Shown here: positions 620 to 64,000 of the stretch, piece after piece
Layout: the number at the start of each line of letters is the position of its first letter
How positions within the stretch are numbered: the first letter of the stretch is position 1
Assembly: GCA_030272155.1 (NCBI GenBank)
Contig: CP126206.1
Location: 1,798,001-1,862,000 of the forward strand
Length of the DNA stretch: 64,000 nucleotides
Reading direction: 5' to 3'
Source of the DNA: Tetradesmus obliquus
Taxonomy: Eukaryota > Chlorophyta > Chlorophyceae > Sphaeropleales > Scenedesmaceae
Notes under the pieces: model-generated
Told to the model about the DNA's origin: nothing
What the model saw: only the letters and a program-made list of their open reading frames with translations
The model's database searches: none
Program-made: the position numbers and the translations under genes

Positions 620-3600
620 TTATGTGACAATGCGCATGGACATGGCGCTCAGCCGCTTCATCCAGCCCACGATTTCATTGTCTGCGTAGCTGCCCTGCGA
701 GGAGGTGCTGATGGGGTGCACCCCTGCCACATCAAAGCTGCCCACACTCCACACAAAGGCCGCATTGATTTTGACATTTGGCGAGCCGCCGTAGCGCAGG
801 AACCCTAGCAGGTTGTAGAACCACTTCTTGCGGTAGTCGCGGAAGTCCTGCAAAGGGTTGGTGTCAGCAGGGTTGCAATGATGAGGGTCAGATAACAGAG
901 TGGGCCGGCGGAAAAAAGGGTCGAAACGAGGGCGCAGCCTGGCTGCCTGCATGCTGTGTTGTGCGACAGCTGCTATGGCATGAAGTTTTGACGAGGATCC
1001 TGCAACTATACTGTTTGGTAAGTACAGCAAGCAACAAGTCTGCCGCCTCACCTGTCGCTGCCAGGGGTCCTGGGCAGTGTTGTACACAGCCCAGATTCCG
1101 TTCTCCACATTCTCTGCCAGGGACTGCAGGTCAGCAGCAGTGGAGCGGCCATCAGGCTGGGCCCCTCCCAGGCCCACCTCGCTGAACAGGAAGTCCTTGG
1201 AGGACTGCGGCGGAGGCAGCAGCAGGGGCAGAAGCAGCAGCAGCAGTGGCAGCAGCAGCAGCAGTGGGTCAGTAAGAGCCAGAAGCAGTGAGGCTGACTG
1301 TTGAGCTGCACTGCATTTATGTTGCTGCTGCTGCTGATGATACACAGCAGCTAAGCAAAAGGATTGCCTGTCGCCGCAAGGCTGGCACAGCGCAGGTCGG
1401 CTGCACCACCAAATAACCGTGGCACAACTGCCGTGCCAGGCCCTTGAGGTTGAATGTATATGGCAGCAGGACCAAGCAGCAGGTTGGTCTATCTGTATGT
1501 TCACAGCTGAGCAGTGCACACCACCCACCTGTTGCACCAGGCCCTTCAGGTTGACGCCCCAGAACTTGAGCTCATACGCAGTCGTCATAAATGGCAGCTG
1601 CAGGCAGCAGCAGCAGCAGCAGCAGCAGCAGGAAGCGATGTTAAGATATCAAGCACAATGGCAATGCAATTCTTTGGGAACGTGTCCTGTGGCCAGGACC
1701 TGTTGCTGCCTCGCTGCCTCAGCTGATGGCATCTCTGCTTTCCTTGGGTGTCCTTGCCAAAACACATTGCACGCTGCCAATCAAGAGCAAGCGCTCCAGT
1801 GACAAAAGAGTGCAGCACTCCTCACAGTGTGAAGTTCTCACCTCAAAGCTCGCAAAGTTCAGCTCGTCAGTCGGCATGGGCGCGTAGTGGCTGATGCCCA
1901 GCACATCAGCGATCTCAAACACGCGCTTCAGCGTGCCTAGGTCATAGTTGCCCTTGATGTAGTCGCGCTGGTCAGCAAAGGCCTTGGAATAGGTTGCGTT
2001 GTACTGCTGTGCGGTGCGCGTGTAGGGCATGAAGAAGCAGTTGCCGCAGACCTTGTTCCAGTGCAGCGCAAAGCCAACCTTCACGTTGGCGCCAACCTGC
2101 AGCAGACAGCAGGAGGAGGTGAGTGCAGCAGAGCATGTGTCAGTGTGTGGAAGCATTGGCTGCGGACCTTGTTTTAGTGCAGCGCAAAGCCAACCTTGAC
2201 ATTGGCGCCAACCTGCAGGCAGACCACGCAGGTATAGCACAGTAGTTTTAGCCGGCTAGATGTTAATGTGAAAAGATACTGCAGGTGCAAAATCTGTCCC
2301 ACAGAGACTACACGCGCCCCATGCCAGGCAACTCCAAAACACTCAGGGAAAACACATGTGGGCAAGAGAACACCGCCAGCCCCCACCTTGCCTCTCGCCA
2401 GGGTGCCCCTGTACTAGCTGATGAGCTTCAAGTAGCTGCACGTGGCTCACAAACACCCGCCCCAGCCCTTGCCAACAGCAGCTCTTTGCCTTCTTCACCA
2501 ATCAGCAAGCCAGCAGATAACCCCGAGTATAGTCAGCGCTGCTCACAGCTGCCTAGCAAGCCCATTATTGACCTGACAAGCCCCGCATAACCAGGCGCAC
2601 AAACATGACGCAAACAATGACAAGACGCACCTTGCCGCGCGCCAGGGTGCCCCTGTACTTGCTGATGAGCTTCATGTAGCTGCACGTGGCTCACAAACAC
2701 CCGCCCCAGCCCTTGCCAACAGCAGCTCTTTGCCTTCTTCACCAGTCAGCAAGCCAGCAGATAACCCCGAGTATAGTCAGCGCTGCGCACAGCTGCCTAG
2801 CAAGCCCATACTTGACCTGACAAGCCCCGCATAACCAGGCGCACAAACATGACGCAAACAATGACAAGACGCACCTTGCCGCGCGCCAGGGTGCCCCTGT
2901 ACTTGCTGATGAGCTTCATGTAGCTGCCCGGGTGCCTGAACAGGCTGCGCCCCATCTCACCCATGACCATGAACCACACCTGACGCAGCAGCAGCAGCAG
3001 CAGCAGCAGCGGAAGAGCAGGTGTCAAAGTTTGAAGAGCGAGCGCCCCATCTCAAGTGCCCCGGCAAACCAGCAGCGGCAGCAGCAGCAGCAGCCACGCG
3101 CGGATGCAGCTGGCGCGTATAGCCCCAACAGGGTGCCTGCGGATGCAGCTGGCGCGTAAAGCCCCAACAGGATGCCTTCTTTCCTACATACAGTGTATGG
3201 GCGCGCATCAGGCCGACACACTTCGCTCAGCTGAGCCCATGCGCACCTTGGTTGATGGCCGGGTGACAGTCCTCAGCGCGTCAGCAGCAGGCCTCACAAC
3301 AACGTCCTCGTAGCTGTAGCCGCCGTACTGCTGCAGCGGGTCAAAGTCGATCAGGTTGCGCCAGGTGGTGTGCAGCGAGTCATCCACGTGGTTTAGGATC
3401 TGGATGCCGGTGAACCCTGACAGGATGGCTGAGCGGAAGCAGCCCTGCAGCGAAAAGCAGGTGCCGCACAGAGCATGCCGTTGATAGCGCGCAGGCTGGT
3501 AGCTACAGAGTGCAGGGCATGTGGGTTAGGCGTTGCAGCAGTCATAAACCATACTGGCAGGCATGTGAAACAGCAGTTTGGCAATAGCAGCAGCATTGAT

Positions 3601-4410
3601 GTTGTGCTTGCCCTACAGCCAGCCACAGGGCCGCACCTGCAGGCCGCGCTTCCAGCGGTTGATGTTGTTCACGTCGGGTTTAAGGAATCCAAAGCCCTCG
3701 GAGTAGGCATTGCTCACATCCTTGAAAGCCCAGTTCTGCACGCCACCAGGACCTCCCTGCAGGAAAAAGCAGCACAGCCAGGCATCCACTTGGTAAGCCA
3801 GTCAGTATTGTGACAACAGCCAGTCAGTGTAGGCATTGCTTACATTCTTGAAAGCCCGCTTCTGCCCACCGCCCGGCCCCCCTTGCAGCAGCAGCGCGGC
3901 AGCACAGCACAGCCATTCAGCGAGGCATGTATTTTGCCGCGTGAATTAAGCAAGAAGAAGGACAGCAGGTGCGGCAGAATCCAGCACACTCTCCTTGACC
4001 CACCTGCCAGTACGCGGTGACCATGATGGACAACTGCTTGCAGCCATCAGAGCCACACAGGCTGAGGTGGCAAGGCAGGTGAGGCTTGTAAGCACTCTCA
4101 AAGCTCACTTGCCAGTAGGCCGTGACCATATCAGATAACTGCCTGCCGCCCTAGAAATGACGCATGCATGCCCCTTGAAGCAGTCTCACCAACCAAGACA
4201 CATACAAATATGTGGCAGCACAGTCCTGCACGCACCTGCCAGTAGGCGGTGACCACAATTGAGAACTGCTTGCCGCCGATTGCGCGCGCACGGCGCACGG
4301 CGTACTCGCAGGGCGTCTGGAAGGTGCCGTGGATGTTCTGCTGCTCCAGGTCCTGCAAGCTGGTGATGATGAAGCTGTTGCTCAGCTCGGCGGCGGGCCG
4401 CGGTGCGGGC
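620..4410 (-). CDS. TIM-barrel glycoside hydrolase-like protein, spliced, 5' end not found
   Basis: Eight exons in transcript order 4236-4410, 3637-3756, 3247-3444, 2875-2979, 1842-2096, 1529-1597, 1052-1204 and 620-847 join in phase through GT-AG introns to a TAA at 620-622, giving at least 433 residues. The first recognised exon opens in mid-codon, so one or more 5' exons are missing; a conceptual coding stretch near 5330-5450 is a weak candidate. The protein has barrel-like strand motifs: VWFMVMGEMG, KVGFALHWNK, VLGISHYAPM and DFLFSEVGLGG. GEMG and SEVG could be the acid/base and nucleophile glutamates of a clan GH-A glycosidase. That assignment is inference; I cannot name a family or substrate. 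Several exon borders are duplicated next to themselves, so a gene caller may add false exons here. Confidence 0.6.
1421..1452 (-). repeat. Decayed copy of an exon 3' end
   Basis: This stretch resembles the last ~30 nt of the exon 1529-1597 (reverse strand, encoding NLKGL). It lies about 100 bp downstream in transcript order. It has lost several positions and is probably not spliced. Confidence 0.4.
2157..2213 (-). repeat. Decoy copy of exon 1842-2096 start
   Basis: This copy of the exon's first ~57 nt carries the flanking CAG acceptor. It lies about 117 bp upstream, in transcript order, of the true acceptor. It is near-identical, differing at a handful of bases. Confidence 0.7.
2387..2979 (-). 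repeat. 244-bp triplicate spanning a 5' splice site
   Basis: Three copies of the end of exon 2875-2979 plus its donor begin at 2387, 2631 and 2875, exactly 244 bp apart. Copies two and three share the whole unit, including the intron segment with the Ala/Pro-rich GCCAGCAGATAACCCCGAG stretch. Only the third continues into the rest of the exon. Copy one has accumulated changes, including a TAG-creating change. Confidence 0.8.
3020..3075 (-). repeat. Decoy copy of exon 2875-2979 5' part
   Basis: The reverse strand reads EMGRSLF again just upstream of the true exon, next to CAG-repeat DNA. It is a diverged copy of the exon head. Confidence 0.5.
3826..3885 (-). repeat. Decoy copy of exon 3637-3756 start
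   Basis: This copy of the exon's first ~55 nt and acceptor lies about 125 bp upstream in transcript order. Its glycine-rich start and WAFK-like segment are altered but recognisable. Confidence 0.65.
4000..4145 (-). repeat. Two decoy copies of exon 4236-4410 end with donor
   Basis: Stretches near 4004-4044 and 4110-4145 repeat the exon's final codons (VTAYWQ) and its donor. The second donor starts GTGAGC. Both lie in the following intron, 110-125 bp apart. Confidence 0.65.
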
Positions 4411-63500: not shown

Positions 63501-63887
63501 TGCCGCACAAAAGTTGGACTCAAAAGCACATGGCAAAAGTCCAACCTTTTTATTATTAACCGTGATTACTCACCAAATCCTCCAGCTCAGCTAGCCGGCT
63601 CTTCACAGTGGCCACCATGTTTTCCTGCTTGGCCCTGAAGCGCTGCTGCGCCAGGCAAACTTAAACACCAGCCCCTGAGACCCTAAGAGCACCAAAACCC
63701 TGAGACGAGGCAGCCCTGAGCCCCAAAAACCTCACCAGGTCCTCAAGCTCAGCCAGCCGGCTTTTTAGGGTGGCCACCATGTTCTTCTGCTTGGCCCTGA
63801 AGCGCTGCTGCGCGAGGCGGTTCTTCTCTTTTGTGCGTGTGAAGGCCACACCCCCGATCATGCCATAGCCCGTGCCGTCACCCAGCT
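60509..63887 (-). CDS. bZIP transcription factor, 5' part outside window
   Basis: Two exons are visible: 63736-63887 and 60509-62803, in phase, ending TAG. The first encodes GYGMIGGVAFTRTKEKN, then the basic region NRLAQQRFR (N-x7-R) and the start of the zipper, LKSRLAELEDL. The second continues the zipper (HTENALLRRVVADQQNML). It then runs ~740 residues of poly-Gln, poly-Ala and Ser-rich sequence with short ordered islands such as DSELEEDAHVKKRQRVSQPYL, a likely nuclear localisation signal. It should dimerise and bind DNA in the nucleus; the Gln/Ala tail is typical of activation domains. The N terminus lies beyond 64000. Repeats of [28 protein letters not shown], in two to three copies, mark internal expansion. 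Confidence 0.78.
62845..62882 (-). repeat. Decoy copy of bZIP last-exon start
   Basis: A near-copy of the exon head (ARQSHEVEA) lies about 80 bp before the true acceptor at 62803. Confidence 0.65.
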
Positions 63888-64000
63888 CTGTAAGAGAGAA
63901 AGAATAACAGCAGTAATGACAGCACAGAGTGTCAGGTCCTTCTGCTTAGTGCGCGTGAAGGCCACGCCTCCAATCATGCCATAGCCCGCGCCGTCACCCA
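63159..64000 (-). repeat. Five-copy array of bZIP exon end, plus exon head copy
   Basis: Zipper-coding tails (KNMVATLKSRLAELEDL) with donors lie at 63159, 63309, 63440, 63574 and 63736 (true), 131-162 bp apart. Those at 63309 and 63574 keep good codons; 63159 has a TAG and 63440 several changes. A copy of the exon head (GYGMIGGVAFTRT) starts at about 63935 and runs off the window. Confidence 0.88.

Follow-up and report, generated by a model that had tools for sequence, protein, structure and literature searches.

Short pieces of exon borders, together with the splice sites that they carry, have been copied in tandem into the adjoining introns in a 64,000-nucleotide stretch of the green alga Tetradesmus obliquus strain OEZ86, referred to here as the window (C16:1,798,001-1,862,000). 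C16 is 4,414,154 bp long, in an assembly of 104.7 Mb and 17 contigs. Three genes of the window could be modelled exactly, namely RCA (rubisco activase), PRPF31 and the glycosidase-like gene OEZ86_010289, which is called GH26-named below; together they have 32 exons and 29 introns. The reading that we favour, with a probability of about 0.7, is that short direct tandem duplications on exon-intron junctions lengthen the introns and leave decaying decoy splice sites behind.

The copies have a strict geometry. When the exon borders of the three genes were searched against their surroundings (Smith-Waterman score of at least 16, within 1.5 kb; 31 of the 32 exons, one 19-bp exon being skipped), 47 partial copies of the genes' own borders were found. 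All 19 copies of exon heads lay upstream of their exon and all 28 copies of exon tails downstream, with one weak inverted match (score 17) against the 47 direct ones. Self-BLAST of the window also gave many near same-strand pairs beyond simple repeats. Direct, adjacent and on the same strand, the copies are those of a tandem genomic duplication. Exon duplication, in which a whole exon is copied with both its splice sites, does not describe them, since in none of 24 families does the aligned part exceed 0.76 of the exon. For these family measurements, and for the 39 copies used for splice sites and identity, exons shorter than 60 bp, first heads and last tails were excluded. The smallest successive spacing per family was 79-262 bp (median 114; at most 153 in 20 of the 24), and spacings recur inside arrays (for example 102, 98 and 99). 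The AG or GT was lost in 5 of the 39 copies, with a GC donor counted as kept. A preliminary description of this DNA had reported such border copies, on these sides and in the orientation of the exon, with periods of usually 80-165 bp and some losses of AG or GT. Self-BLAST and the exact models confirm that the copies are real and that each of these properties holds, and the decay of the copies is as it had described. Its count of roughly 80 copies in seven genes is in line with the 47 found in three.

The duplications are anchored on splice junctions. Among 135 introns, which included kinesin and kinase introns outside the window, BLAST gave 30 duplication families, each of which lay across a single junction of its intron, an acceptor in 16 cases and a donor in 14. 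None was purely intronic; a run with masking turned off added one weak candidate of that type (29 bp, E 0.008). The units had a median length of 114 bp and a median exon extent of 53 bp. For comparison, 4,000 duplications of the observed sizes were placed at random on real introns (101 of 100-500 bp) and their flanking exons, allowed to diverge by 0-30% per branch with the exon in use constrained, and passed through the same detector. The power of detection was 0.60 for intronic units and 0.71 for junction units, so that 39.5% of the detected units should be purely intronic, and the probability of finding 0 of 30 was 2.8e-7. Since the intron-derived part alone could be found in 5 of 24 families, a lower assumed power is a fair caution; with 0.3 for intronic units, about 24% would be expected to be intronic, and the probability becomes 2.5e-4. 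A shared AGGT motif was considered as the trigger and dropped after inspection by eye, because most copied acceptors have no GT after the AG.

The gene models were obtained by spliced alignment of proteins. RCA lies on the forward strand at 18765..24479 and has 11 exons (18765-18787, 18869-18914, 19079-19165, 19899-20037, 20488-20606, 21249-21373, 21962-22179, 22606-22718, 23201-23305, 23730-23834 and 24342-24479), which account for 406 of the 406 residues of P0001 (OEZ86_010292); the RCA piece of the window is 100% identical to OEZ86_010292, and the protein matches the Pfam families AAA and RuBisCO_activase_AAA_helical. The GH26-named gene, at 623..5155 on the reverse strand, has nine exons (5094-5155, 4236-4410, 3637-3756, 3247-3444, 2875-2979, 1842-2096, 1529-1597, 1052-1204 and 623-847) and covers 454 of the 454 residues of P0241; GH26 is the name that one source gives it, and a Pfam search of the protein up to E 0.1 gave no match. 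PRPF31, at 27018..34650 on the reverse strand, has 12 exons (34632-34650, 34071-34174, 32656-32742, 32233-32309, 31903-32014, 30980-31198, 30480-30620, 29856-30050, 29098-29262, 28146-28286, 27596-27697 and 27018-27131), covers 487 of the 492 residues of P0121 and encodes the Pfam domains Nop and Prp31_C. The contigs that encode P0121 are no longer than 1.8 kb, whereas the gene spans 7.6 kb here, and those contigs therefore most probably derive from spliced RNA. Self-trained ab initio gene finding was rejected, as it threaded decoys into genes as mini-exons and fused genes, and its coding pieces were kept only as queries. At a low intron penalty the protein alignment placed zero-length exons at decoys, and a higher penalty was used for the final models. 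Such zero-length exons fell on AG|GT inside introns at window positions 2213, 4004, 22823, 23614, 24132, 28387, 31446 and 31752; several of these are decoys, that is, potential recursive splice sites.

Copies are spread along all three genes. In RCA (forward strand), head copies precede exon 4 (19746..19814, offset -153, AG lost), exon 5 (20369..20425, offset -119, AG lost), exon 6 (three in 20950..21192, offsets -299, -200 and -102, AG kept), exon 7 (three in 21631..21910, offsets -331, -220 and -110, AG kept) and exon 10 (23614..23667, offset -116, AG kept). Tail copies follow exon 5 (20674..20727, offset +121, GT kept), exon 7 (22245..22267, a weak copy at offset +88, GT kept), exon 8 (two in 22780..22933, offsets +104 and +215, GT kept) and exon 10 (23899..23940, offset +106, where the donor is now GC). 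In the GH26-named gene (reverse strand), two tail copies of exon 2 lie at 4004..4150 (offsets +127 and +232, GT kept), a head copy of exon 3 at 3824..3882 (offset -126, AG lost), two tail copies of exon 5 at 2387..2686 (offsets +244 and +488, a recent tandem unit of 244 bp with 95% identity) and a head copy of exon 6 at 2150..2212 (offset -116, AG kept). In PRPF31, introns 2, 3 and 5-11 (9 of 11) hold duplication families, and the copy search with the spliced model placed stop-containing copies of the last-exon tail beyond the stop codon, at 26580..26912 on the reverse strand, with five spare copies at the stop. Stop-containing copies had been described beforehand as following last exons; they are present in PRPF31, and RCA and the GH26-named gene have none at the threshold score of 16. 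The PRPF31 stop codon (window 27010-27031) lies inside a donor-like GTGAGG, and the stop-containing copies beyond it look as if they were arrayed on this pseudo-donor.

The decay of the copies is that of unconstrained sequence. Over 14 junction-spanning alignments, divergence was 0.124 in the exon-derived part and 0.228 in the intron-derived part (gaps counted), a corrected ratio of 2.01 (bootstrap 1.45-2.97). A ratio of about two is expected if selection preserves one member of each exon-copy pair but neither member of an intron pair. The higher identity on the exon side had been considered as a sign of constraint on the decoys, but the comparison of one branch with two shows that free decay accounts for it. 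Differences between exon and copy amounted to 0.096, 0.083 and 0.158 at codon positions 1, 2 and 3, which points to copies without codon constraint plus synonymous change in the exons. Exon-side identity ranged from 0.70 to 1.00 (overall 0.875), and the process is thus long-running and in places recent, as in the 244-bp unit mentioned above. Because of this range, and because annotated proteins of two strains contain an exonised copy, an assembly artefact is unlikely. The contribution to intron length is considerable: when copy spacings are subtracted, the total intron length of the three genes falls from 13,825 to 8,397 bp (copies make up about 39%) and the median intron from 450 to 244 bp, compared with a median of 266 bp in 108 kinesin and kinase introns outside the window. 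A published table gives a mean intron length of 462 bp for T. obliquus, from its authors' own annotation, and of 230-302 bp for the four other green algae tabulated (PMC5966456).

Judged from the protein models, the decoys seem to be mostly passed over. The splice dinucleotide is kept in 34 of the 39 copies (one of them as a GC donor). Scored with matrices built from the 108 outside introns, which were solved from pairs of adjacent Pfam matches and have the consensus CAG|GTGAG or GTGCG at donors and TGCAG|G at acceptors, 31 of the 34 intact decoys reach at least the 5th percentile of true sites, and 16 equal or beat the site in use. Use of 32 of the 34 would cause a frameshift or a stop. At RCA exon 6, for example, the acceptor in use scores -0.5 and the decoys 4.1, 6.5 and 7.7. 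In the three main protein models, the site used is the one that keeps the exon short, as exon definition predicts.

One copy has entered an annotated protein. The second RCA product, P0002, carries an insertion of 11 residues after residue 180, encoded by a 33-nt mini-exon that aligns to the second decoy head of exon 7 (21742-21774) and has its cryptic donor within that decoy; placement on the third copy would likewise be compatible. The same insertion is present in P0003 from strain OEZ85, so the duplication probably predates the split of the strains. This is the one annotated case that may count as intron gain, and the other copies in the three genes only lengthen introns in the proteins at hand. 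In a PRPF31 model of Scenedesmus sp. NREL 46B-D3 (P0122), an insertion resembling the exon-9 tail sits precisely where exon 9 ends, a border that bears tail copies in T. obliquus, which suggests that such a copy is present in that species too; P0122 carries two further insertions and two deletions relative to P0121, and the model may therefore be partly wrong. The RCA model of the same species (P0018) does not have VCMGIFQ at the end of exon 8, a junction that bears two tail copies in T. obliquus.

Several of these observations could be had without any attraction to junctions. If pieces of about 115 bp were duplicated in tandem at random and the exonic ones purged by selection, junction copies would be the visible remainder, since the conserved exon keeps the partner recognisable. 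Such a process would account for the sidedness, the decay and the lack of copies inside exons with no special targeting, and 56% of the simulated random placements crossed a junction (2,256 of 4,000). With the exon part masked, only the 5 families noted above are still detectable, so that a purely intronic duplication is harder to see; and the exon extent of the units departs from a uniform law (Kolmogorov-Smirnov p 0.001), whereas its departure from the simulated null is weak (p 0.08), for which reason we claim anchoring on junctions and not exact centring. These points weigh against our reading, and others do so as well. Families within one gene may be non-independent; of the nine families outside the window, one (in the C2 kinesin) has for its anchor a copied exon head, picked up as a Pfam match, in place of the true exon; the array at the PRPF31 stop codon is away from any splice site of the model, the GTGAGG overlapping the stop; the sites taken as in use are those of annotated and transcript-derived proteins; and the preference for short exons may be one of survival, since the genes that we see are those with an intact protein. 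What leaves random placement unlikely is the complete lack of purely intronic families among 30, where 39.5% would be expected at the simulated power and about 24% at the assumed power of 0.3.

It is more doubtful still that the copies persist because they serve some role, for instance in regulating or buffering splicing by way of the decoys. The intact dinucleotides, the 16 decoys at least as strong as the site in use and the copy exonised in two strains would suit this explanation, but the copies are free of codon constraint, their decay runs at roughly the pace of free sequence, 34 of 39 is not far above the approximately 30 of 39 expected from two free bases (0.875 squared), and nearly all intact decoys would break the frame if used. 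Introner-like mobile elements, or another dispersed repeat at splice junctions, are hardly credible as the source. Introners are reported from green algae (PMC9860276), and such elements end at junctions, but here every copy resembles the exon beside it, is directly oriented and keeps to one side of that exon, and the long-distance matches listed by the self-BLAST are less than 67% identical and CAG/CTG-rich. Similar introns across unrelated genes, the mark of introners, were not found within the window, where copies are local to their own exon.

Duplication on junctions therefore remains the explanation that we prefer, and the following course can be proposed for it. A unit, mostly of about 80-150 bp, takes in about 50 bp of exon and the remainder of intron. 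After an acceptor is duplicated the downstream copy would stay in use, and after a donor is duplicated the upstream copy would; the protein would be unchanged, the spare exon piece and its splice site would turn into intron, and the intron would grow by one unit. Recurrence would leave between one and three spares at a border (at the PRPF31 stop, five), and these then decay without constraint. The spare copies may be tolerated through pairing of splice sites across the short exon, in which case the site giving the shortest exon would win even against a stronger spare. Rarely, a spare copy would meet a cryptic site and yield a mini-exon, as apparently in the RCA isoform, which the annotation shows as an intron gain. 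The underlying mutation probably starts from a break at or near the junction, with repair following once both ends have copied beyond the break or the gaps at offset nicks have been filled; speculatively, copying past both ends before joining would yield units with the break in their interior. Such breaks might be imagined to come from cDNA-driven intron loss that aborts, from RNA-DNA hybrids where a splice site stalls, or from chromatin spacing that places breaks at junctions. Introners insert in nucleosome linkers of algae. In plants, short tandem duplications arise from the repair of offset single-strand breaks, and the likeness lies in direct duplications of tens to about 100 bp; to our knowledge, no preference for junctions is known for that repair. 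We propose only tentatively, and at somewhat less than even odds, that the process is junction-specific, the border itself prompting repeated duplication, and that on one chromosome it has become one of the principal ways in which introns grow and mini-exons arise.

Duplication is dense on this chromosome and patchy elsewhere; it is active elsewhere too, but not at most junctions. The three window genes have 21 BLAST families in 17 of 29 introns and the kinesin and kinase genes outside the window 9 in 8 of 106 (Fisher p 1.5e-8, introns being treated as independent). With 40-bp queries (Smith-Waterman score of at least 18), a copy of the next exon head was found in 5 of the 106 outside introns and a copy of the previous exon tail in 6, where introns of other genes used as a control gave an expectation of 0.1 each, and control queries from exon interiors gave 1 and 0 matches. 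The outside set was drawn from 97 of 149 kinase matches (those with a neighbour) and all 135 kinesin matches, in pairs that followed the query order at most 2.5 kb apart; 2 of the 108 solved introns were dropped for ambiguous sites, and only 1 of the 106 is on C16. The filter for adjacency and order can lose introns that copies have lengthened or disrupted, so that 8 of 106 may be an underestimate. In random 2.4-kb probes with simple repeats masked, close direct duplications occurred in 17 of 20 on C16 versus 10 of 20 on other contigs (p 0.04), and more than 10% duplication coverage in 17 of 20 versus 7 of 20 (p 0.003); these were counted irrespective of splice junctions, and some probes (L093, covered to 99%, and L129, with inverted matches) may hold other repeats. 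In such unannotated probes the background of splice-like sites is too dense for site scores within the duplications to be informative. Duplications were present in 17 of 26 window tiles of 2.4 kb and in 7 of 33 kinesin and kinase loci of at least 2 kb. Of the earlier proposal of a general process at most junctions of the genome, the part in which junction-crossing duplication lengthens introns and leaves decoys agrees with the sidedness, the orientation, the decay and the lost AG or GT, whereas its generality does not stand against the outside counts given above.

Two loci outside the window and several features within it can be added. Probe L093 (C16:1000000-1002399) is filled over 99% of its length by a repeat of about 278 bp, probably a satellite or similar array. 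At C2:7430665-7431650 (L032, L039), several copies of a kinesin exon head, 92-100% identical, stand upstream of that exon, apparently a recent amplification, and a six-frame Pfam search lists three of these C2 head copies as additional matches. Within the window, a tandem array found by TRF and self-BLAST lies at 50501..51439 on the reverse strand beside coding pieces of a candidate lumen-protein gene, for which there is no exact model and the piece searched gave no Pfam match. Tandem copies of a bZIP-like exon segment were found by self-BLAST at 63153..63815 on the reverse strand, also without an exact model; the match to bZIP_1 (E 6.9e-5, 23.3 bits) is under the curated cut-off of 27.6. A CAG-rich array of about six or more 116-bp units occupies window positions 10499-11746, near the RING-CH gene of the preliminary description, and a GT microsatellite of 218 bp with 98% matches lies at 10107-10324. 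The segments at 38474-42794 and 60454-62839 are very rich in CAG/CTG, have long open frames (1,268 and 776 aa from stop to stop) and contain repeats that match mutually on both strands.

The pattern has partial precedents. In a published single-gene case, an intron-exon structure was duplicated directly in tandem, together with its branch site, pyrimidine tract and acceptor, and activation of a cryptic donor created a new intron, to which the RCA isoform can be compared; here, by contrast, both donor and acceptor junctions of several genes are involved, nearly all copies are silent intron, and the chromosome is rich in them. In the Rogers/Hellsten model, as outlined in PMC4974935, an exon segment bearing AGGT is duplicated, and intragenic tandem duplication with a protein preserved by splicing is common to that model and to our case. 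However, the units here hold a real junction and intron, and they enlarge existing introns with no exon split at AGGT: all 30 families lie on an existing junction, and the spacing exceeds the exon part in 24 of 24. As under exon definition (PMC2397502, PMC4378016), the site used in the main protein models is the one that leaves the exon short, even against stronger spares. From intron lengths, PMC4378016 argues for intron definition in Volvox and Chlamydomonas. The arrays, as far as sequence and protein models can speak, suggest that T. obliquus differs from them and may use exon definition. Among the titles and opening lines of abstracts of the papers listed by searches of the open-licence literature of PubMed Central, we found no announcement of such a pattern across a chromosome or genome.

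In conclusion, some introns of this alga offer a natural experiment on intron lengthening and splice-site choice. Gene finders will stumble on such introns, as the ab initio finder did here, and the PRPF31 model of the sister species carries what resembles a copied exon tail. The growth of introns is usually ascribed to transposons and random insertion. Here, even in such conserved genes as RCA and PRPF31, stepwise growth can be read directly from copies that differ widely in age, and this makes testable the growth of introns by duplication of their own borders, the contest of exon and intron definition among near-identical sites, and the passage from a border copy to a new exon and intron.

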